Source: Prevotellaceae bacterium
GTDB taxonomy: Bacteria; Bacteroidota; Bacteroidia; Bacteroidales; Bacteroidaceae
Assembly (NCBI GenBank): GCA_021204715.1
Contig: JAJPYW010000160.1
Location: 1 to 10,030, forward strand
DNA length: 10,030 nucleotides
Direction: 5' to 3'
This document shows, in pieces, positions 1 to 10,030 of the stretch. Each line of letters begins with the position of its first letter. The stretch's first letter is position 1. The notes under the pieces were generated by a model that ran no database searches, was not told where the DNA came from, and worked only from the letters and a program-made list of their open reading frames with translations. A program made the translations under genes and the position numbers.

Positions 1-124
1 CACCGCCGTGGGCACCCGTCTCGTAAGGGAAACGCCAGATGTTGCCCAAGCCCACGGCCGAGCCTGCCGAAGCGAGTATGGCACCCATTTTACTGCCGAA
101 GTTCGCCCTTTCGTTTCTTGTCAT
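1..124 (-). CDS. Sodium:neurotransmitter symporter (NSS/SNF family), N-terminal fragment
   Basis: Only the first ~41 codons are in the window; the gene continues beyond base 1. Translating the minus strand from the ATG at 124-122 gives MTRNERANFGSKMGAILAS followed by AGSAVGLGNIWRFPYETG. The GSAVGLGNIWRFPY segment is the hallmark of transmembrane helix 1 of the NSS (LeuT-like) family, where the unwound helix carries the sodium and substrate sites. The family couples inward Na+ flow to uptake of amino acids or related amines at the inner membrane; the substrate here cannot be read from so short a piece. A -7 element lies about 50 bases upstream on the same strand. The gene is divergent from the VanZ-like gene. 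Family assignment is confident because the motif is highly specific. Confidence 0.88.
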   Translation of the reverse strand, partial: MTRNERANFGSKMGAILASAGSAVGLGNIWRFPYETGAHGG

Positions 125-173
125 AATGCGCCCAATTATTCTTTGAATACGTTATAATTTGCTTTTAAAGCGA

Positions 174-181
174 CAAATATA
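174..181 (-). promoter_or_regulatory. Bacteroides-type -7 element for the symporter gene
   Basis: The minus strand reads TATATTTG, an exact match to the Bacteroidota sigma-ABfr -7 consensus TAnnTTTG. It is about 50 bases upstream of the symporter ATG, so transcription would start near base 167 and give a leader of roughly 40 bases. No good -33 TTTG is present; the nearest candidate is ATTG 23 bases upstream. Confidence 0.45.
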
Positions 182-194
182 GGAAAATGTTAGT

Positions 195-202
195 TACTTT
201 TG
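195..202 (+). promoter_or_regulatory. Bacteroides-type -7 element for the VanZ-like gene
   Basis: TACTTTTG, followed by C, matches TAnnTTTG exactly and ends 26 bases before the ATG at 229. It lies inside the alternative longer reading frame that begins at 187, so it argues for the downstream start. Together with the minus-strand element at 174-181 it makes a compact divergent promoter region. A -33 TTTG at the usual distance is not visible. Confidence 0.45.
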
Positions 203-228
203 CGCAATCTATGCAAGAAATTGTAGGA

Positions 229-633
229 ATGACCAATTATATAAGGAAATACCCCGTGTCGCTCGTGGTCATCGTGGTGGTGATATACCTTTCGTTCTTC
301 AAGCCGCCCAAGACCGAATTAGATGCCGTGAAAGGCTTTGACAAGTTGGTGCATGTGCTCATGTACTTGGGCATGTCGGGCATGTTGTGGTGGGAGTTCC
401 TGCGCGCGCACCGCAAAAGGCAAGTACCCTTGTGGCACGCATGGATAGGCGCGCTCTTGTGCCCGGTGCTTTTCAGCGGATTGGTGGAGATACTGCAAGC
501 CCGCTGTACCACCTACCGTGGCGGCGATTGGTGGGACTTCGTGGCCAGCAGTGCCGGGGCGGTGTTGGCTTCGCTCATCGGCTATTTCATCCTAAGGCCC
601 TTTGTGGGGCGCAAAAAGCAACCGCTATCATAA
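229..633 (+). CDS. VanZ-like family integral membrane protein
   Basis: This small protein (134 aa from the ATG at 229) has four probable membrane segments, at about residues 10-24, 39-57, 70-90 and 102-123. The VanZ-family signature is visible. FDKLVHVLMYLGMSG in the second segment carries the conserved D-K, H and Y. The third and fourth segments hold VEILQARCTTYRGGDWWDF, with the E, Q, R and paired D residues of the family. VanZ gives low-level teicoplanin resistance in enterococci, but most relatives are of unknown role, so no resistance claim is made. An in-frame ATG at 187 would add 14 residues. I chose 229 because homologues usually begin near the NYIRKYP segment and because a -7 element lies between the two ATGs. 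The gene converges on murF with 11 bases between stop codons. Confidence 0.85.
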   Translation: MTNYIRKYPVSLVVIVVVIYLSFFKPPKTELDAVKGFDKLVHVLMYLGMSGMLWWEFLRAHRKRQVPLWHAWIGALLCPVLFSGLVEILQARCTTYRGGDWWDFVASSAGAVLASLIGYFILRPFVGRKKQPLS

Positions 634-644
634 AAGTTGCCTGC

Positions 645-1943
645 TTACAGATAATCCACCACCGAGCTTAACTGCACGCTGTTGGAGCCTTTCAGCAAGA
701 CGGTCATGCCGTGGGGCTTGTGCTGTTGCAACGCGGCGGCGAGCACTTTGGCGTCGGCAAAGACGGCATAGGGATGGCGCGCGGCGGCGAACTCGCCACC
801 CACAAGCCACACCCTCTCGAAGCCGAAGCTTTCCACCAATTCCACAATGGCTTGGTGTTCCCGGGCACTCTCTCCGCCCAATTCACGCATGTCGCCCAAT
901 ATCACCATCTTGTGCGGGGCTTGCATTAGGTGGAAGTGGTTGAGTGCCGCCCGCATACTGGTGGGGTTGGCGTTGTAGGCGTCGATAATCAGGGTGTTGT
1001 CGGCTGTCTGTTTCAGCTGCGAGCGGTTGTTCTGCGGACGGTAGGCGGCGATGGCGCTGTCTATCTTGTCGGCCGCGATGCCGAAGTAGCGCCCCACGGC
1101 AACGGCGGCCAAGGCGTTGGGAAAGTTGTATTCGCCGATGAGCTTGGTCTCCACGTGGTGCATCGTCACGTCGCTCTCCGTCTGCCAGTCGAAAGATAAA
1201 AAAGGAGAGTTGCCCGTCACCCGGCCGTGTACGTACAGTCCTTCGGCAGTGCCGTAAGGCACCCGGCGCAGTCCGTGTGCCATCTGCTTCAAGCAAGCGT
1301 CGTCATCGTGGATAAATATGGCGGCGTCCTTGCGCCCGCGCAGGAAGTCATACAGCTCGCCTTTGGTGCGCACCACGCCTTCAAACGAGCCGAAGCCTTG
1401 CAGATGTGCCTTGCCCACGTTGGTGATGAGTCCGTAGTCGGGTTCGGCAATCTCCACCAATTCGCGTATGTCGCCGGGGTGGCTGGCACCCATTTCAATC
1501 ACGCCTATCTCATGCTCCTTCTTGAGGCCGAGCAGCGTCAAGGGCACGCCGATGGCGTTGTTCAAGTTGCCTTGCGTGTAGAGAATGTGCAGCGATTGCG
1601 ACAGCACGGCGGCCACCAACTCTTTGGTAGTGGTCTTGCCGTTGGTGCCGGTAATGGCCAGCAGGCGGGTGCCCATCGTGCGCCGGTGGTGGCGTGCCAA
1701 CGCTTGGAGCGCTTCGAGGCAGTTGTCCACCAACAAGTAGCGCTTGTCGCCTTCGGGCATGTACCCGGCTTCGTCTACAACGGCATAGCGGCAGCCCTTC
1801 TCCAAAGCCGCGGCTGCGAAGGCGTTGCCGTTGAAATTGCTTCCCTTCAACGCCACGAAGAGGGAGCCTTGGGGGGTGTGGCGGCTGTCGGTTGTCACGC
1901 CGCCGCACGCTTGGAACACTTGGTAAAGGGCGGTTATATCCAT
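645..1943 (-). CDS. murF: UDP-N-acetylmuramoyl-tripeptide--D-alanyl-D-alanine ligase (MurF)
   Basis: MurF is the ATP-dependent cytoplasmic ligase that adds D-Ala-D-Ala to UDP-MurNAc-tripeptide, completing the peptidoglycan pentapeptide precursor. The 432-residue protein shows the three Mur-ligase domains. The N-terminal UDP-substrate domain has TDSR at 18-21. The central ATPase domain has the P-loop TGTNGKT at 98-104, the LNNAIGVPLTLL segment at 127-138, the metal-binding E150 in EMGAS, NVGKAHLQGFGS at 175-186, and K194 in the position usually carbamylated. The C-terminal domain starts near NNRSQ (305-309), with DAYNANPTSM at 321-330 and GDMRELG at 350-356. DAYNANPTSM separates MurF from MurC, MurD and MurE. 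Length is normal for the family and the frame is intact. It stands alone, not in a division/cell-wall cluster, and is divergent from folP. Confidence 0.96.
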   Translation of the reverse strand: MDITALYQVFQACGGVTTDSRHTPQGSLFVALKGSNFNGNAFAAAALEKGCRYAVVDEAGYMPEGDKRYLLVDNCLEALQALARHHRRTMGTRLLAITGTNGKTTTKELVAAVLSQSLHILYTQGNLNNAIGVPLTLLGLKKEHEIGVIEMGASHPGDIRELVEIAEPDYGLITNVGKAHLQGFGSFEGVVRTKGELYDFLRGRKDAAIFIHDDDACLKQMAHGLRRVPYGTAEGLYVHGRVTGNSPFLSFDWQTESDVTMHHVETKLIGEYNFPNALAAVAVGRYFGIAADKIDSAIAAYRPQNNRSQLKQTADNTLIIDAYNANPTSMRAALNHFHLMQAPHKMVILGDMRELGGESAREHQAIVELVESFGFERVWLVGGEFAAARHPYAVFADAKVLAAALQQHKPHGMTVLLKGSNSVQLSSVVDYL

Positions 1944-2063
1944 GCGACGTTTTCTTTAAGTAGATTAGAAAGAAGCGGCGTCCCTGTCAGCAGGCTTGAC
2001 ATTGACAGAACCCCCGGAAGGCAAGCAGAATGACTACTCCGCAAGACGCTGTTTTCTTGTCTA

Positions 2064-2071
2064 CAAAGATA
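2064..2071 (-). promoter_or_regulatory. Candidate -7 element upstream of murF
   Basis: The minus strand reads TATCTTTG, an exact TAnnTTTG match, 120 bases upstream of the murF ATG. It would give a leader of about 110 bases. No -33 TTTG is seen at 19-23 bases upstream, so this is a candidate only. A second exact match lies farther upstream at 2150-2157. Confidence 0.35.
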
Positions 2072-2149
2072 GTGATAAATGGTGGATTGCGGATGCTTGT
2101 CGTGAAGAAAAAAGGTTGGCTCCGCGCTCTAACAAGTTGCCTTCCCTTG

Positions 2150-2157
2150 CAAAGTTA
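2150..2157 (-). promoter_or_regulatory. Second candidate -7 element upstream of murF
   Basis: The minus strand reads TAACTTTG followed by C, an exact match to the Bacteroidota -7 consensus with the often-seen trailing C. It is about 206 bases upstream of murF, so use of this site would give a leader of roughly 200 bases. The 280-base murF-folP gap has no convincing gene; these elements and the folP candidate at 2203 are all I see in it. Confidence 0.33.
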
Positions 2158-2202
2158 TGTTTATTTTCCCCTGCAATGTAAGGAAGCCAACTGTTTTTTT
2201 CG

Positions 2203-2210
2203 TACTTTTG
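2203..2210 (+). promoter_or_regulatory. Candidate -7 element for folP
   Basis: TACTTTTG matches TAnnTTTG exactly and ends 13 bases before the ATG at 2224 and 28 bases before the in-frame ATG at 2239. The other promoter/start pairs in this window have 26-50 bases between -7 box and ATG, which favours 2239 as the real folP start. Confidence 0.42.
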
Positions 2211-2223
2211 AGGCGGTTAATTA

Positions 2224-3114
2224 ATGATTGATGATGCAATGACTGCCACCTCCCCTGCCTCCGTGTCTTACAGCCGCACGCTCAATGTGAACGGCACGCT
2301 CTTGGACCTCTCCACGCCTTGCGTGATGGGTATTCTGAACGTGACGCCCGACTCTTTTTATGCCGACAGCCGCAAGCAGGGCGAGGAGGCCATTGCGGCG
2401 CGCGTCAGTGAGATAGTGTCGCAAGGCGCCGCCATTATCGACATCGGCGCTTACTCATCGCGGCCGGGTGCCGACGATGTGTCTGCAGGGGAGGAGATGC
2501 GGCGTTTGCGGCTTGGTTTGCAGACAATAAACAAGGTGGCGCCCGGCGCGGTGGTTTCGGTAGATACGTTCCGTGCCGACGTGGCGCGTATGTGTGTGGA
2601 AGAGTATGGCGTGGCCATTGTCAACGACATCTCAGCCGGCGCCATGGACGCGGATATGTTTCCTACGGTGGCGCGGCTTGGCGTGCCATACATCGTGATG
2701 CACCTGCAGGGCACGCCCAAGGACATGCAGGCCGCCCCGCATTACGACAACTTGCTTGCAGAGGTGTTCCAATACTTTGCCCGCAAGGTGGCCGCGCTTC
2801 GTGAATTGGGTGTGAAGGACATCATTCTTGATCCGGGCTTCGGCTTTGGCAAGACGTTGCAGCACAACTACACGCTCATGGCTCACTTGGAGGAGTTCCG
2901 TCTCTTCGAGCTGCCTTTATTGGTAGGTGTGTCGCGCAAGTCCATGGTGTACCGTCTGCTTGGTTCGTCGCCCCGCGAGACGCTCAACGGCACCACGGCA
3001 CTCCACGCTATCGCGCTCATGAAGGGGGCCGACATCTTGCGCGTGCACGACGTGCGCGAGGCGGTCGAGGCGGTAAGCATTGTGTCGGCCATGCGTGAGA
3101 GTGCCGCTTTATAG
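2224..3114 (+). CDS. folP: Dihydropteroate synthase (FolP)
   Basis: FolP condenses p-aminobenzoate with 6-hydroxymethyl-7,8-dihydropterin pyrophosphate in folate synthesis; it is the target of sulfonamides. The 296-residue protein shows the complete set of TIM-barrel signatures: VMGILNVTPDSF at 34-45, DIGAYSSRPG at 73-82 (pABA loop), SVDTFRADV at 112-120, ND at 134-135, MHLQGTP at 159-165, DPGFGFGKT at 203-211, VSRKS at 236-240 with the catalytic-site K, and the terminal LRVHDV at 272-277. Length is typical. The start is uncertain: ATG 2224 and ATG 2239 are both in frame, differing by five residues, and the promoter position favours the second. It is followed after 159 bases by cdaA on the same strand, a pairing that I recall as common in Bacteroidales. 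Confidence 0.96.
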   Translation: MIDDAMTATSPASVSYSRTLNVNGTLLDLSTPCVMGILNVTPDSFYADSRKQGEEAIAARVSEIVSQGAAIIDIGAYSSRPGADDVSAGEEMRRLRLGLQTINKVAPGAVVSVDTFRADVARMCVEEYGVAIVNDISAGAMDADMFPTVARLGVPYIVMHLQGTPKDMQAAPHYDNLLAEVFQYFARKVAALRELGVKDIILDPGFGFGKTLQHNYTLMAHLEEFRLFELPLLVGVSRKSMVYRLLGSSPRETLNGTTALHAIALMKGADILRVHDVREAVEAVSIVSAMRESAAL

Positions 3115-3124
3115 GCTTTGCCGG

Positions 3125-3158
3125 GTGCAGGTTGAAGGCTTTGCCTGCCGGCCTGCAC
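3125..3158 (+). other. Stem-loop just after folP, possible attenuator or weak terminator
   Basis: GTGCAGG at 3125-3131 pairs with CCTGCAC at 3152-3158, and the enclosed sequence holds a second hairpin, AGGC (3136-3139) with GCCT (3143-3146) around a TTT loop. It begins 11 bases after the folP stop. There is no T-run after it, so it is not a textbook intrinsic terminator; it could stabilise the folP 3' end or separate folP from cdaA expression. Confidence 0.4.
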
Positions 3159-3173
3159 GGACCGGTGGCTATA

Positions 3174-3202
3174 TATATATAAGGTGTAACTTGACAATAA
3201 AA
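3174..3202 (+). repeat. Direct repeat copy 1 in the cdaA leader
   Basis: This 29-base segment (TATATATAAGG, then TGTAACTTGACAAT and A-rich end) recurs 69 bases downstream at 3243-3271 with 27 of 29 bases identical; the differences are at 3186/3255 and 3200/3269. This copy runs into an ATG at 3202 that opens an 18-codon frame ending at 3258. Confidence 0.75.
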
Positions 3203-3242
3203 TGAACGGCTTCAACCGTCGGCTCATGGCTGTTGACGCCGG

Positions 3243-3271
3243 TATATATAAGGTATAACTTGACAATAGAA
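3243..3271 (+). repeat. Direct repeat copy 2 in the cdaA leader
   Basis: This is the second copy of the 29-base repeat, ending two bases before the GTG start of cdaA at 3274. Both copies are therefore followed almost at once by an initiation codon, which suggests a duplicated translation-initiation or control segment. Confidence 0.75.
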
Positions 3272-3273
3272 CC

Positions 3274-4035
3274 GTGTTTTTTGATTTTGGCATAAAAGAT
3301 TTCATAGACATCTTGTTGGTGGCTTTCCTGCTGTACTACGTGTACAAGCTCATGAAGGTCTCCGGCTCTATCCGTGCGTTTGTCGGTATCTTGATATTCA
3401 TCTTGCTATGGTTGGTGGTGACGCAGGTCTTGGAGATGAAGTTGCTTGGCTCTATCTTCGACAAATTGGTCAGCGTGGGCGTACTGGCGCTCATCATCAT
3501 CTTTCAGGAGGAGATACGCCGCTTCTTGCTCACGCTTGGCTCGCACCATGCGGTGGCGTTGGTGCAGTTTCTCACCGGCAAGAAGAAGGAGCGCATGAGT
3601 CACACGGAAATCATGCCGCTCGTCATGGCTTGCATGAGCATGGGCAAGCAGAAGGTGGGTGCCTTGATAGTCATCGAGCGCAACATGCCCTTGGACGATG
3701 TGGTGCGCACGGGCGACGTCATCGACGCCAACATCAACCAGCGGCTCATCGAGAACATCTTCTTCAAGAACAGTCCGCTGCACGACGGGGCCATGGTCAT
3801 CAGCCAGATGCGCATCAAAGCGGCGGGTTGCATCTTGCCCGTCTCCCACAACCTCGACATTCCCAAAGCGTTGGGATTACGCCACCGCGCCGCCATGGGC
3901 ATCTCCCAAGCTTCTGACGCGTTGGCCATTATTGTTTCTGAAGAGACGGGGGCCATCTCCGTGGCTTATAAAGGCGAGTTCCACTTGCGGCTCAACGCCG
4001 AGCAGTTGGAGAGTTTGCTCACGGAAGAGGGATAA
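3274..4035 (+). CDS. cdaA: Membrane diadenylate cyclase (c-di-AMP synthase, CdaA/DacA type)
   Basis: CdaA makes the second messenger cyclic di-AMP from two ATP, and in other bacteria c-di-AMP controls potassium and osmolyte transport and cell-wall balance. The 253-residue protein has three N-terminal membrane helices at about 8-26, 33-50 and 62-77, followed by QEEIRRFL (78-85) and a cytoplasmic DAC domain at about 105-235. The two catalytic motifs are intact: DGA at 171-173 in SPLHDGAMV, and RHR at 203-205 in LRHRAAMGI. Length is normal for the family. The start is a GTG: an in-frame TAA at 3256-3258 rules out a longer form, and translation from here gives the usual MFFDFGIKDFIDILL opening. 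No YbbR-domain (CdaR) gene or glmM follows, unlike the Firmicutes arrangement; the neighbour is folP. Confidence 0.94.
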   Translation: MFFDFGIKDFIDILLVAFLLYYVYKLMKVSGSIRAFVGILIFILLWLVVTQVLEMKLLGSIFDKLVSVGVLALIIIFQEEIRRFLLTLGSHHAVALVQFLTGKKKERMSHTEIMPLVMACMSMGKQKVGALIVIERNMPLDDVVRTGDVIDANINQRLIENIFFKNSPLHDGAMVISQMRIKAAGCILPVSHNLDIPKALGLRHRAAMGISQASDALAIIVSEETGAISVAYKGEFHLRLNAEQLESLLTEEG

Positions 4036-4106
4036 AGCCCCTTCTTTGTCCTCGCCGCATGCACACGGCGGCCGCCTTGTCATGCCGCTGTGCCGCACCT
4101 CTCATT

Positions 4107-4167
4107 TGTAACAAGTTTGAGACGAAAATGTAACTTGCTTTTCAATTTTCAGTAACACCAATGTAAC
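4107..4167 (+). promoter_or_regulatory. Putative PhoB/PhoP-type operator: TGTAAC direct repeats on an 11-base register
   Basis: TGTAAC occurs at 4107-4112, 4129-4134 and 4162-4167, and AGTAAC at 4151-4156. Start-to-start distances are 22, 22 and 11 bases, all whole multiples of 11. The skipped register at 4118 holds TGAGAC (4 of 6 matches); the one at 4140 holds only a weak match. The last repeat ends 10 bases before the -7 element at 4178. Direct repeats with 11-base spacing placed just upstream of the -10 region are the architecture of PhoB boxes in Proteobacteria and PhoP boxes in Bacillus. The assignment to a Pho regulator is inference from this geometry plus the downstream phosphatase. 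Confidence 0.5.
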
Positions 4168-4177
4168 TTGATGCCGA

Positions 4178-4185
4178 TAGCTTTG
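4178..4185 (+). promoter_or_regulatory. -7 element of the phosphatase operon promoter
   Basis: TAGCTTTG followed by C is an exact TAnnTTTG match, 27 bases upstream of the ATG at 4213. No -33 TTTG occurs 19-23 bases upstream; that position is occupied by the TGTAAC repeats, as expected for an activator-dependent promoter. Confidence 0.55.
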
Positions 4186-4212
4186 CATCGAATTCAAAAA
4201 GATGACAAAGTT

Positions 4213-5145
4213 ATGAAAATGAAGAAAGCATTTCTGTTATTCGTGTTCTTAATCAGTGGCGCGGCCATGGCCCAAACCACCGATTATTCGGTATTCGCCG
4301 GCAAGTTCAATTTCTATGTAGCCAACGACTTGGGGCGCAACGGATACTACGACCAGAAGCCCATTGCCGAATTGATGGGCGAGATGGCCGAAGAAGTATC
4401 GCCAGAGTTCGTCCTTGCCACCGGCGACGTGCACCATTTCGGCGGCGTGCGCAGCGTGGACGACCCGTTGTGGATGACCAACTACGAACTCATATACTCC
4501 CATCCCGAGCTGATGATTGACTGGTTCCCCTTGTTGGGCAACCATGAATACCGGGGCAACACGCAGGCCGTATTGGACTACACCCGCGTGAGCCGCCGTT
4601 GGTGCATGCCGGCCCGCTATTACACCAAGGTTTTCGACGCTGAGGGTGCCACCTTGCGCGTTGTGTGGGTAGACACCGCTCCCCTGATTGACAGATACCG
4701 TGAGGAAAGCGACACTTACCCCGACGCCTGCAAGCAAGATTACCGGCAACAACTTGCATGGGTTGACTCCGTGCTCACCGTGGCCAAGGAAGACTGGATT
4801 ATCGTGGCGGGACACCATCCCGTCTATGCCGAGACGCCCAAGACTGAAAGCGAGCGCGCCGACATGCAGTCGCGGCTCGACCCCATCCTGCGCAAGCACA
4901 AAGTAGATATGTACATCAACGGACACATCCACAACTTCCAGCACGTGCGCGTGCCGGGAAGCGACACCGACTACATCACCAACTCGGCCGGCGCCCTTTC
5001 CCGCAGTGTCAACTCCATAGAAGGAACACAGTTCTGCAGCCCCGAGCCGGGCTTCTCCATCGTGTCGGTCGACGGGAGCACGTTGGAACTGCGCATGATC
5101 GACAAGCACGGCAACATACTCTACACCGTGACGCGCGTTAAATAG
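4213..5145 (+). CDS. Secreted type-5 (TRAP-like, purple-acid-phosphatase family) metallophosphatase
   Basis: This is a calcineurin-fold phosphoesterase resembling mammalian tartrate-resistant acid phosphatase, expected to release phosphate from organic esters outside the cytoplasm. From the ATG at 4213 it has 310 residues and a clear signal peptide: charged MKMKK, hydrophobic core, and AMA before Q21. The five metal-site motifs are in order: DLG (39-41), GDVHH (71-75), GNHE (109-112), VAGH (198-201) and GHIH (237-240). The second motif is normally GDxxY in purple acid phosphatases; here the tyrosine position is H75. Segments such as LDYTRVSRRW (121-130) also match the TRAP pattern. An in-frame ATG at 4168 would add 15 residues before the signal peptide but lies upstream of the -7 element, so I reject it. 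The receptor gene follows after 40 bases, consistent with cotranscription. Substrate is unknown. Confidence 0.88.
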   Translation: MKMKKAFLLFVFLISGAAMAQTTDYSVFAGKFNFYVANDLGRNGYYDQKPIAELMGEMAEEVSPEFVLATGDVHHFGGVRSVDDPLWMTNYELIYSHPELMIDWFPLLGNHEYRGNTQAVLDYTRVSRRWCMPARYYTKVFDAEGATLRVVWVDTAPLIDRYREESDTYPDACKQDYRQQLAWVDSVLTVAKEDWIIVAGHHPVYAETPKTESERADMQSRLDPILRKHKVDMYINGHIHNFQHVRVPGSDTDYITNSAGALSRSVNSIEGTQFCSPEPGFSIVSVDGSTLELRMIDKHGNILYTVTRVK

Positions 5146-5185
5146 CCCTCCCCCTTTTCAACAATATTCCGTAAGAGAAAGCATC

Positions 5186-7894
5186 ATGACGCGATGTATC
5201 TTTACTTTGCTTGCCGCCCTGCTGCTCGCGGCCGTGGCGGTGGATGCCAAGAATGTGAAAGGGAAGGTCAAAGATTCCCAATCGGGAGAAGAGATTATCG
5301 GAGCCACCATTGTGGTGAAAGACAACGCCGCCAGGGGAACCGTAACGGGGTTGGACGGCAGTTTTACGCTCTCCATAGACGGTTATCCCTGCACGCTCGT
5401 ATGCACTTACGTGGGTTACAAGTCCGTTGAGCGCACCTTGAAGAAGGATGAAAACAACATAGCCATTGCATTGGATGCCGACAACTTGGTGTTGGGCGAA
5501 GTGACCATAGTCGCCCAAAACCCCGGGCGCACCGAAGTGGGCGCGCGGGGCATCGAGAGACAGGCGCTCAATGTGGTGAATGTGATGAGCGCCAAAGCCA
5601 TCGAGTTGTCGCCCGACTTGACCGTGGCCAACGTCATACAGCGCATGAGCGGCGTCACCATGGAACGAAGCAGCTCCGGCGAAGGGCAGTATGCCATCCT
5701 GCGGGGCATGGACAAGCGCTACAACTACACCTTGGTGAACGGCGTGAAGATACCCAGCCCCGACAACAAGAACCGCTTCGTGCCGCTCGACATCTTCCCC
5801 TCCGAGTTGCTCGACCGTTTGGAAGTGGTCAAGTCGCTCACCGCCAATTTAGAGGGCGACGGCATAGGCGGCGCCGTGAACATGGTGATGAAAGACGCCC
5901 CGGGCGAGCGTCAGCTCACGGCCAACCTCTCCACGGGCTACAGCCTCCACTTCCTCCACCACGATTTCCAATCCTTCAGCGCGGGCGACATCGCGCGCAA
6001 GAGCCCCAACGAAGAGTATGGCGACGCTTATCCGGCCGACGCCACAGACTTCACCATGAAGAACCTGCGCGTGAAGTCGGCCAAGCCGTTGCCCGACCTT
6101 TCAGCCGGCTTCTCTTACGGCGACCGCTTCTTGGGTGAACACTTGGGGCTGATGGCCGCTTTGAGTTACTCCAACCGCAACAAAGGGAAGGTGAGCGACA
6201 TGTACGAGAGCGCCGCCGACAACAACGGCGTGCAATCCATCACCAACCGTTACTTCTCCGAAAGGCAGACGCGCGTGGGCGCCCACTTGAAGTTGGATTA
6301 CTACATCGACCAGCAGAACAAAATCACTTGGTACAACGGCTGCATGGACTTCCGCGACGCGCAAACGCGCGATGCCGTGGGCACGCAGGACGAAATCGTC
6401 CGCCTGCGCCTGCAGCACCAACGCATTCTCAACTCCACGTTGAAGGGCGAGCACAAACTGCTTCTCCATGACGCCCTCGGCATCAACTGGGGCGTCAACA
6501 TAGCGGGCGCGCGCAACTATATACCCGACAACGCGCAGATACAGTTGAAGAACAACACTGACGGCGCCGCACAGTGGGTAAACAACGACACCGGCGCCAT
6601 ACGCCGTTGGGAACACAACAGCGACGACGACATCTCCGGTTACTTGGACTTGAGCTACCAATTGAAAACAGCGGCCGGCGGCGCGCTCGAGTTCACCGCC
6701 GGCGGCATGTACCGTGACAAGAAGCGCGCCAGCTTCTACCACGAGTACAACTTCCAGCCTTACGACGAGAGCAAGCCCGACGTGAACCGTTACGACCAGT
6801 ACCGTGGCGAAGACTGGGACAATTACGATGAAATCAGCTTCCGCTTGAGCAGCTACACGCTGAGCGACCCCATGAACTACGACGCCACCGAGAAGATAGG
6901 CGCCGGATACGGACAGTTGCGCTACACCCGCGGGCGTTGGCAAGTGGTGGGCGGCCTGCGCGTGGAGCACACTGACCAAGGTTACACGCTGCTTTACCCC
7001 ACCGAAGGTGCCCGGGGCGAAGGCTCGCAGCGCTACACCGACTTCTTGCCCGACGTGCACATACGCTACAACATACACAAGGACGCCAACCTGCGTCTCT
7101 CCTATTACCGTGCCGTCAACCGTCCCAGCTTCTTCGAGATTGTGCCTTACCACATCATCAACGAAGACTACAACGAAAGCGGCAACCCCGACTTGAAGCA
7201 CACCACCGCCGAGAACTTCGACTTGCGCTACGAGTACTTCCCCAAGCCCACCGAGCAAGTAATGGCGTGCCTATTCTACAAGAAGCTCAAGAACCCTATC
7301 GAGTATGGCATGCAACCCGTGGGGCAAGAGACCTTCTACACGCCCGGCAACTACGGCGACGCCGGCAATTGGGGCGTTGAATTGGACGTGATGAAGTACT
7401 TCCGTTGGTTCGGCGTCAAGGCCAACTACACCTTCATCCACTCTTCCATCACCACTTCCAAGTTGCATGAATTGACGGACGAGAACGGCAGCGTCTATAC
7501 CGTTTACGACGAGCAGACGCGCCCCCTCTTCGGGCAGGCGGCACACGTGTTCAACTGCTCGTTGCTCTTCAAGGACGCGAGGCGTGGATGGGACGGACAG
7601 ATAGCCTTCTCACGCACCGGCAAGCGCGTCTCCGTGATAGACCGCTTCTACGAGAACGACCGTTGGGACGCCGGCGTCACGCAGCTCGACGTGAGTGCCG
7701 AGAAGCAGTTCAAGTGTGGCCTCTCCCTCTTTTTGAAAGGGCAGAACCTGCTGAACACGCCGCTCATCCGCTACTACCATGCCAACGACCGCAACGCTTC
7801 CACCCTGAACGTGCGCCGCTACGACAAAGGCGTTGTGGAGCGTGAGGAGAAGACCGGGCAGAGTTTCCTTTTGGGCATGAGATACAAGTTATAA
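5186..7894 (+). CDS. TonB-dependent outer-membrane receptor with CarboxypepD_reg-like N-terminal domain
   Basis: This 902-residue protein is an outer-membrane beta-barrel that imports a ligand using TonB energy. It has a signal peptide at about 1-21 and a carboxypeptidase-regulatory-like domain at about 24-98 (VKGKVKDSQSGEEIIGATI, then GTVTGLDGSF and YVGYKSVE). The plug spans about 115-240, with TVANVIQRMSGVTMERS at 146-162, RGMDKRYNYTLVNGV at 173-187, PSELLDRLEVVKSLTANLEG at 205-224 and GIGGAVNM at 226-233. The rest is barrel, ending in FLLGMRYKL. The plug pattern recalls the TIGR01782-type receptor family more than SusC, and no SusD-like gene follows. It lies 40 bases after the phosphatase and 41 bases before the lipoprotein gene, so an operon is likely. 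No separate promoter is visible in front of it. The transported ligand is unknown; a dephosphorylation product or phosphate ester is a guess from context. Confidence 0.92.
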   Translation: MTRCIFTLLAALLLAAVAVDAKNVKGKVKDSQSGEEIIGATIVVKDNAARGTVTGLDGSFTLSIDGYPCTLVCTYVGYKSVERTLKKDENNIAIALDADNLVLGEVTIVAQNPGRTEVGARGIERQALNVVNVMSAKAIELSPDLTVANVIQRMSGVTMERSSSGEGQYAILRGMDKRYNYTLVNGVKIPSPDNKNRFVPLDIFPSELLDRLEVVKSLTANLEGDGIGGAVNMVMKDAPGERQLTANLSTGYSLHFLHHDFQSFSAGDIARKSPNEEYGDAYPADATDFTMKNLRVKSAKPLPDLSAGFSYGDRFLGEHLGLMAALSYSNRNKGKVSDMYESAADNNGVQSITNRYFSERQTRVGAHLKLDYYIDQQNKITWYNGCMDFRDAQTRDAVGTQDEIVRLRLQHQRILNSTLKGEHKLLLHDALGINWGVNIAGARNYIPDNAQIQLKNNTDGAAQWVNNDTGAIRRWEHNSDDDISGYLDLSYQLKTAAGGALEFTAGGMYRDKKRASFYHEYNFQPYDESKPDVNRYDQYRGEDWDNYDEISFRLSSYTLSDPMNYDATEKIGAGYGQLRYTRGRWQVVGGLRVEHTDQGYTLLYPTEGARGEGSQRYTDFLPDVHIRYNIHKDANLRLSYYRAVNRPSFFEIVPYHIINEDYNESGNPDLKHTTAENFDLRYEYFPKPTEQVMACLFYKKLKNPIEYGMQPVGQETFYTPGNYGDAGNWGVELDVMKYFRWFGVKANYTFIHSSITTSKLHELTDENGSVYTVYDEQTRPLFGQAAHVFNCSLLFKDARRGWDGQIAFSRTGKRVSVIDRFYENDRWDAGVTQLDVSAEKQFKCGLSLFLKGQNLLNTPLIRYYHANDRNASTLNVRRYDKGVVEREEKTGQSFLLGMRYKL

Positions 7895-7935
7895 ACCTTT
7901 ATAAGACATAGTATAAACCAATCATCTTTATTCGT

Positions 7936-9555
7936 ATGAAATCATTCAAAACTTTGGCAATGGTGTGCATTGCCCTTACCGGCTGTTTCATGGCTTCGTG
8001 TAGCGACGACAACGGCGAAACCGCTGATGTAATCAAGAAATTCGTATTGTCACAAAGCGCCATTACCCTCTCTCCCGAAGGGACGGAGACGTTGGAGTGT
8101 ACTTTCTTTCCCCAGAATATCGCCGACCAAGAAGTAACTTGGAGCTCGTCCGATGAAAGTGTAGCTACCGTGTCCGGCGGTGTGGTCACTGCCTTGACGC
8201 CGGGTGTGGCCGTTGTTACCGCCACGCCCGATGCCGCCCCGTCGTTGGCCTGTCGTTGTACCGTCACCGTGGCCATGAACACCATGGAAGTGTCGGGCAC
8301 GGTGGAGGGTGTGTGGGAGGCATACACCACCGTCACCGTGAAGGGGCAGTTGGAAGTGCCCCAAGGCAGCAGCCTCACCATTGAGGAGGGTGTGGAGGTG
8401 CTCTTCAATTCAGCCGACGCGCAAGGTACGGGCATTGAGTTCACCGTCAACGGGAACATCTACTGCATGGGTACGGAAGAGGCGCCTGTTGTTTTCTCCA
8501 TTCCCTCGGCGGAACGTACCTTTGCCAATGTATTGGACAAAAAGAACCTTTGGGGTGGCTTCATGCTGAATAATCAGGCCGATGATGCCGAGGCGCTCTT
8601 CAGCCATTGTGACATTGAGTACGTGGGCAGCCCCATGACCGAGACGTCGCCTTCTGTATTGGCGGGCATCTATACCGCGGGCGAGGACTACGGGGTACAG
8701 ATTACCACCGGCCCTTCGTTCAAGGGGAGTTTGGTGGTGGAGTATTGTACCATTGCCAACGGCTTTGCCGACGGTATTTACATGCAAGGGGGCAAGGGCG
8801 TCATCACCCACAATGTGTTTGCTTGCAACGGGGCCACGGGCGGCGAGGCGGTCAACGTGAAGGCGGGTACCACCACCACGGTGGCTTATAATGTGATGTA
8901 CAGCCCCAATACCAACGGGTTGAAGCTTTCCAGCTCGGGGCAGGACGACACGGCGGGGCGTTACCAGTCAAAGTGTGTGGCTTATAATAATACCATTGTG
9001 AACGCCGGCTGGCGGCGCGACGGCGTGAAAGGGGGCTGCGTTTATGTCGAGAAGAATGTGTTGGCCAATGTGTTCAACAACTTGATGGTGAATTGCAAGT
9101 TTCGTGCCATGGCGCCCAAGTGGGGCAATCCGGGTGTGAAGAACGGTTGCGACGACAAGTCGGTCATCGACTATAACTGTTATCTTTCGGGCAGTGTGGT
9201 GAGTGACTTCAAGCAGGATGAAGAGGAAGGGGCGGTTCAGACGCCTTGCGATGGATACAACAGCAGCAACGAGAATTATGCCGACGCGGTGGATGCCCAC
9301 AGCCTCATTGCGCAGGCGGCGGATGACATTGACATCGCTTTTGTGAATTTCCCGTACGACTCGGTGTTGTTGTCTGATACTTCGTATGACAGTAGTTGGG
9401 ATTTCCGTGTTGTTTCTATGATTGAGGGGGCTACCGGGGATGCTTCGTTGGCTCGGTTGGGTGACATGGATTATGTTGATTCGGGGTTGACGGTGGGTGG
9501 CAAGGTGTATAGTGCCGACGCGCCGGGAGTGTTCTTCGGGGCTTACGCGAAGTGA
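7936..9555 (+). CDS. Predicted surface lipoprotein with Big_2 domain and parallel beta-helix
   Basis: This 539-residue protein begins with a lipoprotein signal. The best lipid-attachment site is C22 (FMASC), followed by SDDNGE, an acidic stretch like the Bacteroidota signal that sends lipoproteins to the cell surface. C17 (ALTGC) is a second possible lipobox. Residues ~35-113 form a Big_2 Ig-like domain, with SAITLSPEGTETLECTF, then VTWSSSDESVATVSGGVVTA. Residues ~118-430 look like a right-handed parallel beta-helix, with repeated short-strand and NGG/NN turns such as YCTIANGFADGIYMQGG (270-286) and CVAYNNTIVNAG (347-358). The C-terminal ~110 residues are not recognised. There are 13 cysteines after C22. 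No catalytic motif is evident, so it could be a ligand-binding partner of the receptor or a polysaccharide-active protein. It is the last gene before the terminator. Confidence 0.82.
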   Translation: MKSFKTLAMVCIALTGCFMASCSDDNGETADVIKKFVLSQSAITLSPEGTETLECTFFPQNIADQEVTWSSSDESVATVSGGVVTALTPGVAVVTATPDAAPSLACRCTVTVAMNTMEVSGTVEGVWEAYTTVTVKGQLEVPQGSSLTIEEGVEVLFNSADAQGTGIEFTVNGNIYCMGTEEAPVVFSIPSAERTFANVLDKKNLWGGFMLNNQADDAEALFSHCDIEYVGSPMTETSPSVLAGIYTAGEDYGVQITTGPSFKGSLVVEYCTIANGFADGIYMQGGKGVITHNVFACNGATGGEAVNVKAGTTTTVAYNVMYSPNTNGLKLSSSGQDDTAGRYQSKCVAYNNTIVNAGWRRDGVKGGCVYVEKNVLANVFNNLMVNCKFRAMAPKWGNPGVKNGCDDKSVIDYNCYLSGSVVSDFKQDEEEGAVQTPCDGYNSSNENYADAVDAHSLIAQAADDIDIAFVNFPYDSVLLSDTSYDSSWDFRVVSMIEGATGDASLARLGDMDYVDSGLTVGGKVYSADAPGVFFGAYAK

Positions 9556-9588
9556 GTTCATTGTCCCTTTGATATGTGATTGTTGGTA

Positions 9589-9626
9589 GATGGGGATGTG
9601 TCTTTTGACACAGCCCCATCGGTTTT
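9589..9626 (+). terminator. Intrinsic terminator of the phosphatase-receptor-lipoprotein unit
   Basis: GATGGGG (9589-9595) pairs with CCCCATC (9614-9620), and TGTGTC (9597-9602) pairs with GACACA (9607-9612), with one A-G mismatch between the two stems and a TTTT loop. The hairpin is followed by GGTTTT. It lies 33 bases after the lipoprotein stop and is the first strong terminator downstream of base 4213. Confidence 0.88.
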
Positions 9627-9754
9627 ATAATGGTTGCGTTGGCATTGACTGCTGTGATATGTTGGTTTTACGGGGAGGTTGTGTGCTCCTATGGGATGTT
9701 GTGAGGGGGCGGCGGATGTGCTTTAGGCATTGTCTTGGCTTGCTGTATGTTGGT

Positions 9755-9828
9755 TTACGGTTATGCTTTTGGCAGGGGAGTGACATGCTGCGTAAAAGGA
9801 TTACGGATGTGGTTGGGGCAGGGGAGTG
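9755..9828 (+). repeat. Degenerate direct repeat, 46-base period
   Basis: Bases 9755-9782 and 9801-9828 align with 23 of 28 identities. Both begin TTACGG and end with an identical 12-mer, GGCAGGGGAGTG (9771-9782 and 9817-9828). The second copy abuts the left arm of the large inverted repeat at 9829. Related fragments lie nearby, for example TATGTTGGTTT with ACGG near 9657-9673 and 9746-9760. The surrounding stretch is G/T-rich and non-coding. Confidence 0.5.
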
Positions 9829-9920
9829 GCCTTTGTGTCACATCGTAGCACGAAGCCGGATATGGTCGTTCCTCCCGAACCTCCGGCTTCGTGCTACGAT
9901 GTTACACAAAGGCTTTACTC
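9824..9920. repeat. Long inverted repeat (32-base arms) forming a near-perfect hairpin
   Basis: The left arm 9829-9860 and right arm 9882-9913 are reverse complements over 32 positions with one mismatch (C9839 against T9903). They enclose a 21-base loop, which itself can pair GTTC (9868-9871) with GAAC (9877-9880). Outside the arms GAGT (9824-9827) can pair with ACTC (9917-9920) across a small internal loop. The core is ATCGTAGCACGAAGCCGGA and its complement. No T-run follows, so it is not an ordinary terminator. It could be a small non-autonomous palindromic element (REP or MITE-like), a structured RNA, or a cruciform-forming protein site. The rest of 9627-10030 contains no gene I can support. 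Confidence 0.85.
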
Positions 9921-10030
9921 AAAGGTTCGTGATTTGCTTAGGGTTTTGTCCTATGGGGGCAGCGGAATGTAGCTTGCTTGGGGTTGGTGGCGCGACCATT
10001 CCGTCAAATCTTCGCACAGCGCTTCGCTTA

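Follow-up and report, generated by a model that had tools for sequence, protein, structure and literature searches.

An 11-bp repeat array joined to a -7 promoter element before a phosphatase operon: a probable Pho box of Bacteroides type

The window analysed here is a stretch of 10,030 nucleotides from a Prevotellaceae genome (GenBank GCA_021204715.1, contig JAJPYW010000160.1, positions 1 to 10,030), and the element in question is an array of short direct repeats at 4107-4185, within the intergenic region (4036-4212) that separates a gene with a diadenylate cyclase domain from a row of three genes. These encode a calcineurin-like phosphoesterase (the phosphatase below) with an N-terminus that resembles a signal peptide when its translation is read by eye, a TonB-dependent outer-membrane receptor, and a Big_2 and beta-helix protein that, also by eye, is probably a lipoprotein (Table 1). 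The array reads TGTAAC-N5-TGAGAC-N5-TGTAAC-N5-TTTCAA-N5-AGTAAC-N5-TGTAAC-N10-TAGCTTTG, six units in a single 11-bp phase followed by an octamer that we take to be a -7 element of the TAnnTTTG type. We consider it very probable that a Pho box and a Bacteroides-type promoter are combined here, and that PhoB would activate the operon through them at low phosphate.

Table 1. Positions of the array units, promoter element and genes in the window
Feature	Position	Strand	Basis
Pho unit 1, TGTAAC	4107..4112	+	direct reading; alignment A1 columns 1-6
Pho unit 2, TGAGAC, degenerate	4118..4123	+	in 11-bp phase; alignment A1 columns 12-17
Pho unit 3, TGTAAC	4129..4134	+	direct reading; alignment A1
Pho unit 4, TTTCAA, odd unit	4140..4145	+	YTTCAA at the same place in 8/8 pstC promoters
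Pho unit 5, AGTAAC	4151..4156	+	direct reading; alignment A1
Pho unit 6, TGTAAC	4162..4167	+	direct reading; alignment A1
10-bp spacer, unit 6 to -7	4168..4177	+	length 10 recurs before other phosphate genes
-7 promoter element TAGCTTTG (TAnnTTTG)	4178..4185	+	letters read directly
Gene with diadenylate cyclase domain, before the intergenic region	3274-4035		domain search
Calcineurin-like phosphoesterase (PF00149), operon gene 1	4213..5145	+	67.3 bits, cut-off 21.5
TonB-dependent outer-membrane receptor (PF13715, PF07715, PF00593, PF14905)	5186..7894	+	domain search
Big_2 and right-handed beta-helix protein	7936..9555	+	domain search

The array and the pstC promoters

Four of the hexamers (starts 4107, 4129, 4151 and 4162, spaced 22, 22 and 11 bases) had been recognized in a first-pass annotation of the window and stand where it placed them; its count of four missed two weaker units in the same phase, TGAGAC at 4118 and TTTCAA at 4140. 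Its further observations, that the last hexamer ends 10 bases before the -7 element and that a -33 TTTG is lacking, are borne out. TTTG occurs in the promoter at 4105 and 4116 and then solely within the -7 element, so that there is none between 4117 and 4181 and hence none at the -33 distance, which on the -33/-7 spacing that we assume would fall on unit 5 (4151). When the 177-bp intergenic region was shuffled 20,000 times with its dinucleotide composition preserved, no shuffle gave four units in one phase and three gave three units, a unit being counted at one mismatch or fewer to TGTAAC in a single 11-bp phase of six slots.

The PhoB protein of B. fragilis shifts a 512-bp pstC promoter fragment in an electrophoretic mobility shift assay, and pstC expression falls to a trace in a phoB mutant (PMC3547664, accessible text, as for all citations of this paper below). 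Because this promoter is a published PhoB target, pstC promoters were chosen for training. The gene was found above its family cut-off in eight of the 12 genomes searched, and all eight promoters, each from Bacteroides and that of B. fragilis (L071) among them, share one plan: six units at 11-bp steps (in order TGTAAY, [TC]GTAAY, TGAAAY, YTTCAA, [AG][GT]TCAC and CTTAAY), then N10, then TTTCTTTG or a near copy. A matrix built from these eight promoters, with no phosphatase promoter and no window sequence in it (the pst-only matrix), scores the window site at 38.3 bits, with the next best place in the window at -4.1, a margin of 42 bits; 20 mononucleotide shuffles of a 9-kb locus (L044) reached a maximum of 12.3 and a mean of -3.9. 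Window and pst promoters agree even at the fourth position, where the unit is odd: the window has TTTCAA, the pst promoters YTTCAA.

Arrays at related operons and other phosphate genes

Two checks proposed in the first-pass annotation, that the 11-bp spacing persist before related phosphatase operons and that the motif precede other phosphate genes, both favor its Pho-type reading. The closest related loci among named genomes come mostly from Bacteroides species, and 21 of 34 related phosphatase loci exceed the shuffle maximum with the pst-only matrix (17.3-33.8 bits). In these 21 the array precedes a TonB-receptor gene that itself lies ahead of the phosphatase gene; phosphatase identity to the window is 71-81% in 20 of them and 59% in L063, and the receptors are 24-26% identical to the window receptor over the best stretch. 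Receptor and beta-helix genes of the window type are found divergent from the phosphatase gene in L050 (B. salyersiae; 57% and 54% identity) and before it in L055 and L064 (51-52% and 46-49%). The receptor types thus differ while the array stays in front, which indicates that the operator is kept at the head of the operon and that the receptor behind it varies. A second model, R1, trained on 27 sites (eight pst, 18 phosphatase operons and the window, with no phoB site), matches upstream of the phosphatase gene in 25 of the 28 genomes of the genus that carry it, some of them training genomes. The gap between receptor and phosphatase genes in L038-L047 and L061 holds repeats such as CGGTGCACCG or TTCCTTTTAAAGG, which occur in B. 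fragilis and in the B. xylanisolvens/acidifaciens/faecis group and are missing from the shorter gaps of several other species.

Genome scans with R1 scored the best 150 candidates or fewer per genome in 12 genomes and, under stricter filters, 94 or fewer in each of 49 genomes of the genus, several of which had supplied training sites; absent matches are weak evidence in both. In the smaller scan every one of the ten named Bacteroides genomes has a match upstream of phoB (E 3e-5 to 0.013), and the Barnesiella genome has none there among the candidates scored. Across the 49 genomes at least 121 matches reach E 0.02 or better, and 78 of the 121 stand on the same strand upstream of one of three target groups, namely phoU/pst (28, within 5 kb), phosphatase (25, within 5 kb) and phoB (25, within 300 bp); for matches of 30 bits or more the proportion upstream of phoU/pst, phosphatase or phoB is 48 of 53. 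A match lies upstream of phoU in 27 of the 31 genomes with PhoU above cut-off. In loci fetched by protein alone, TGTHAY pairs 11 bp apart number 16, 12 and 9 in the phosphatase, pstC and PhoB sets and 0, 1 and 0 for the reversed motif, with further peaks at 22 bp (12 in the phosphatase set, five in the PhoB set) and 38 bp (eight in the pstC set).

The same geometry recurs before genes that contributed no training sites. PiT, ppk and porin genes were chosen on the strength of an R1 match ahead of each in one genome or more, so that the families were selected and most of the genomes were not; the genes were fetched by protein and scored for four-unit arrays at spacings 7-16 and gaps 4-17, alongside phoB. 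Excluded rows were the PiT locus L216 and the porin pieces L243 and L244, all from the window genome, 11 of 17 ppk matches (L223-L233, paralogs at 35-38% identity), and L108-L110 of 14 PhoB-family loci. Mean best scores at spacing 11 were 33.1 for PiT (11 loci), 28.3 for ppk (6), 21.6 for the porin (9) and 28.7 for phoB (11); the mean was negative at all other spacings in all four families, and at spacing 11 each family scored highest with a gap of 10. Scores of about 22 bits and upwards were obtained at 34 of 37 loci, the three misses being the Barnesiella phoB (L097) and two porin loci (L239, L241) in which units are present with the -7 element out of register. In the B. fragilis genome searched, arrays stand before pstC (L071), phoB (L098), ppk with downstream ppx (L219) and PiT (L209). 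Judged by annotation and gene order, these four loci are likely counterparts of the PhoB-dependent genes known by BF numbers; a search for the L159 porin turned up no close relative in this genome. The PhoB-dependent set includes PstSCAB, ppk (BF2645), exopolyphosphatase (BF2646), a phosphate/sulphate permease (BF3715) and the alkaline/acid phosphatases BF0480, BF1756 and BF4541 (PMC3547664).

The genes behind 20 further R1 matches were also read, with names taken from translations where there was no family call. Some are phosphate genes: stand-alone phoU without pst (L163, L164), a PiT-type permease (L158, L167), ppk with ppx (L157) and a porin-like gene (L159). A second TonB receptor with a lipoprotein follows the match in L151, L153 and L154, and in B. 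fragilis (L156, 6092-6146, minus strand) the array precedes a GT4 glycosyltransferase and flippase-like pair. The flippase-like domain is above cut-off and the glycosyltransferase is weakly like glycolipid synthases; a glycolipid remodelling unit for phosphate starvation is one possible role for the pair, which may swap phospholipids for glycolipids under that condition. For some matches (e.g., L152, L161, L162, L166, L169) no recognised phosphate gene was seen behind the array on reading.

Several of these loci have features of their own. In L163 (B. gallinarum, 571-651) and L164 (B. ndongoniae, 537-617) phoU, identified by reading in L164, lies behind a full pst-type array in genomes with no pstC above cut-off, where pst appears to have been lost and the operator and phoU kept. 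L156 holds a second R1 match downstream (about 3823-3875, minus strand). On the minus strand of L165 (B. salyersiae, 4497-4574) lies a complete array of six units, with N10 and TACTTTTG, that scores 39.3 bits and faces the end of a 616-aa plus-strand gene; the next 1.9 kb on its own strand hold open reading frames of 64 and 91 aa only, and the array may be an orphan operator left by operon movement or may control a phosphate-responsive small RNA. Repression of a sodium/phosphate cotransporter gene was considered and is not claimed. Its leader gives weak R1 matches in three genomes (E 0.03-0.06), and 21 of 22 leaders (L168, L170 and L245-L264, of which L259 gave no start) show TGCAAY-N5-TGTA[AT]C-N5-TTTCAT, which overlaps a TATTTTTG-like element and extends downstream of it; this block also forms the first codons of a divergent reading frame on the opposite strand (MKQMLQICC... 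or MKHMLQICC... in L170 and L168), which explains its conservation as probably coding.

The regulator, the mechanism and its alternatives

The window genome (1,742,823 bases in 295 contigs, fragmented and 71.59% complete) encodes both partners of the expected two-component system on contig C148, PhoB with 318.8 bits (NF053854, cut-off 270) and PhoR with 512.8 bits (NF053855, cut-off 500). A second array in this genome, TGTAAA-N5-CGTAAC-N5-CGACAT-N5-CGTAAC-N10-GATTTTTG, precedes the porin-like gene that follows phoBR. Since the end of the porin gene and the PiT permease gene share contig C140, phoBR, the porin gene and the permease gene may belong to a single cluster that is split over contigs. 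In B. fragilis the regulator encoded behind an array matches the NCBIfam equivalog for Bacteroides PhoB (379.9 bits, cut-off 270) and adjoins PhoR (987.3 bits, cut-off 500). In a 98-residue alignment with chain 1gxp of E. coli PhoB, the DNA-binding domain of this regulator scores 59.6 bits, and the aligned part includes a stretch, drtidvnitrlrk in B. fragilis and drtvdvhirrlrk in E. coli, that is presumably the recognition helix. L112, the second-best B. fragilis protein with TIGR02154, was dropped as a PhoB candidate; its best score is to a heavy-metal regulator family. The Bacteroides PhoB cut-off was passed by three of 60 genomes in a draw aimed outside the genus, two of which belong to the genus, and a loose three-unit match preceded phoB in five of the 30 loci read of 82 matches listed, the clear one (L175) also being from the genus. 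Lower-scoring PhoB genes in a different arrangement, directly after a reading frame of about 580 aa that holds a PhoU-like domain, occur at G022:C18:45292-46499 and G028:C33:70751-71865, with no R1 match among the candidates scored.

The first-pass annotation had suggested searching the genome for the exact word TGTAAC-N5-TGTAAC, and that search gave only two matches, both on contig C294 past the 3' end of an opposite-strand gene, and neither is at a known phosphate gene. The exact word finds little because the units vary (CGTAAC, TGTTAC, TGAAAC, TTTCAA and so on). On that contig three units in 11-bp steps, TGTAAT/TGTAAC/TGTAAC, are accompanied by another TGTAAC pair on the minus strand (L118, 6612-6742), past the 3' end of a plus-strand gene and near the contig end, with a weak R1 match (13.3 bits) and no -7 element in register. 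Another weak match in the window genome (C56:268-321, 12.9 bits) revealed no clear array on reading and was set aside. Two other repeats lie in the window itself. A 29-nt direct repeat (93%, form TATATATAAGGTGTAACTTGACAATA) at 3174-3202 and 3243-3271, upstream of the diadenylate cyclase gene, has TGTAAC in one copy only and no 11-bp array; an inverted repeat after the operon (9829-9913), whose 32-nt arms show 97% complementarity and stand 21 nt apart, could be a terminator or the end of a mobile element.

The array shows sequence-level features by which Pho boxes are known, namely tandem direct repeats at 11 bp, recurrence upstream of pst, phoB, phosphatase and other phosphate genes, and the position of an activator site, with a 10-bp gap and no TTTG where we presume the -33 element would stand. 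Within the window genome itself the recurrence is limited to the porin-like gene next to phoBR. On this basis a mechanism can be proposed in which phosphate scarcity would cause PhoR to phosphorylate PhoB, and phospho-PhoB would bind head-to-tail on up to six 11-bp units, as three dimers with two units each. The last units would cover the -33 region, and PhoB, in place of a -33 motif, would recruit RNA polymerase and hold it at the -7 element, from which unit 6 is set at a fixed 10 bp upstream. Starvation would then induce the secreted phosphatase, the TonB receptor and the beta-helix protein, with the phosphatase predicted to free phosphate outside the cytoplasm and the receptor to import phosphate or a phosphate ester.

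A number of observations weigh against this interpretation. Neither pstC nor PhoU was found in the 71.59% complete window genome, and no array precedes its phoB, which lies 17 bases beyond the end of a tRNA-Arg gene. In the genus R1 matches lie upstream of phoB in 25 of the 40 genomes with PhoB, among the candidates scored. Matches of any kind occur in 36 of those 40 genomes and in four of nine genomes without PhoB (G002, G014, G034 and G045, 63-87% complete), an association (Fisher p 0.006) and not a rule. The pair counts include one high control, ten reversed-motif pairs at 12 bp in the phosphatase set. Finally, 13 of the 34 phosphatase loci fall below the shuffle maximum with the pst-only matrix: seven have a short two-unit form with N10 (L054, L056-L060, L062); the promoters of L055 and L064 lie outside the fetched flank; L043 is cut by a contig end, with an R1 match at the end of contig C263 in G042, which equals the L043 contig in length; the units of L050 are one base out of phase; and on reading no array was seen at L053 or L065.

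The alternative that survives best is that a different member of the OmpR family, such as RprY or a relative of Riemerella PhoP, recognizes the array, although we regard this as improbable. Binding to tandem direct repeats is common in the family, Riemerella anatipestifer belongs, as we understand it, to the same phylum as the source of the window, and each of the 12 genomes searched encodes at least two PhoB-like regulators at E 1e-40. The DAP-seq motif of R. anatipestifer PhoP, most conserved as TTTAACA, is near these units, in a study that stresses aerotolerance and membrane genes in the text available (PMC9603813). However, the array stands before phosphate genes and before phoB itself, the regulator encoded behind it in B. 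fragilis satisfies the PhoB model and scores 156 bits with that of RprY against a cut-off of 370, and in that species deletion of phoB, and not of the next best homolog BF2185, cut pstC to a trace (PMC3547664). It is more doubtful still that PhoB binds the array and mainly represses, or tunes another activator. Repression is also ascribed to Pho regulators (PMC4415409, in part), but here the array stops 10 bp short of the -7 element, in the position of an activator, and pst, phoB and ppk share this geometry and rise at low phosphate in B. fragilis (PMC3547664). Helical phasing is frequent in AT-rich intergenic DNA, yet a merely compositional, curvature-related periodicity with no dedicated binding protein is scarcely credible for an array that none of 20,000 shuffles matched and whose unit letters, 11-bp spacing and 10-bp gap are conserved ahead of genes that supplied no training sites.

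Activation by PhoB through the array therefore remains the preferred explanation, drawing as it does on the pst-only matrix, the untrained families and the PhoB and PhoR genes of the window genome. We extend it with good, somewhat lower confidence to the genus: four to six TGTAAY-like units at 11 bp, placed exactly 10 bp before the -7 element and replacing the -33 element, probably constitute a genus-wide Pho box from which the PhoB regulon can be read in sequence. Its likely new members, at the same level of confidence, are the phosphatase and TonB-receptor operon with its exchanged receptor, the second TonB receptor-lipoprotein operon and the glycosyltransferase-flippase pair. Bacteroides are common gut bacteria, and a predictive operator would separate direct from indirect PhoB targets, name new phosphate-scavenging genes and offer a basis for designing phosphate-controlled promoters for Bacteroides genetics. 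The operator would also be a clean case of an OmpR-family activator working with the phylum's unusual -33/-7 promoter.

Comparison with known systems

A close known system is the PhoRB pair of B. fragilis (BF1575/BF1576) acting on its pstC promoter, which has the same regulator family and the same six-unit plan (L071). Low phosphate raises phoRB and pstC more than 10-fold in this species, and PhoB is reported to alter the expression of 585 genes as well as persistence in abscesses (PMC3547664). The words 'consensus' and 'motif' each occur 0 times in the main text of that paper, and a literature search whose coverage omitted most subscription journals and all preprints found no paper defining a Bacteroides Pho box; the closest publications were this one and the DAP-seq study of Riemerella PhoP.

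The E. coli Pho box lies over the upstream promoter element. It likewise consists of 11-nucleotide direct repeats bound head-to-tail by PhoB, and boxes with such repeats are known in several phyla, with a sequence that varies by species (PMC4415409, in the portion available). The E. coli unit is CTGTCAT (PMC4415409), in contrast to the TGTAAY-like units of the window and of Bacteroides; this is why we class the array as a variant of Bacteroides, distinct from the E. coli type. In addition, the basic E. coli box has two units, whereas that of the window has six, the last of them a fixed 10 bp from a TAnnTTTG -7 element.

Other likenesses concern binding motif and gene content. IPR011050 is, we assume, the pectin-lyase-fold entry that covers beta-helix proteins. 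By gene type the operon of the window resembles the PhoBR cluster of Flavobacterium johnsoniae, where the TonB receptor Fjoh_0545 (PF07715, PF13715, PF14905) and the lipoprotein Fjoh_0546 (IPR011050) are strongly induced by phosphate depletion (PMC8115612, as far as its text was accessible). The OmpR-family PhoP of R. anatipestifer has in TTTAACA a core similar to the array units; it differs in its 583 peaks, and the accessible part of the report names no phosphate genes and contains 'direct repeat' 0 times (PMC9603813). Computed Pho boxes have also been described for plcP clusters of marine bacteria, in a study whose available text covers a flavobacterium and not Bacteroides, and which is likened here by description (PMC4796936).
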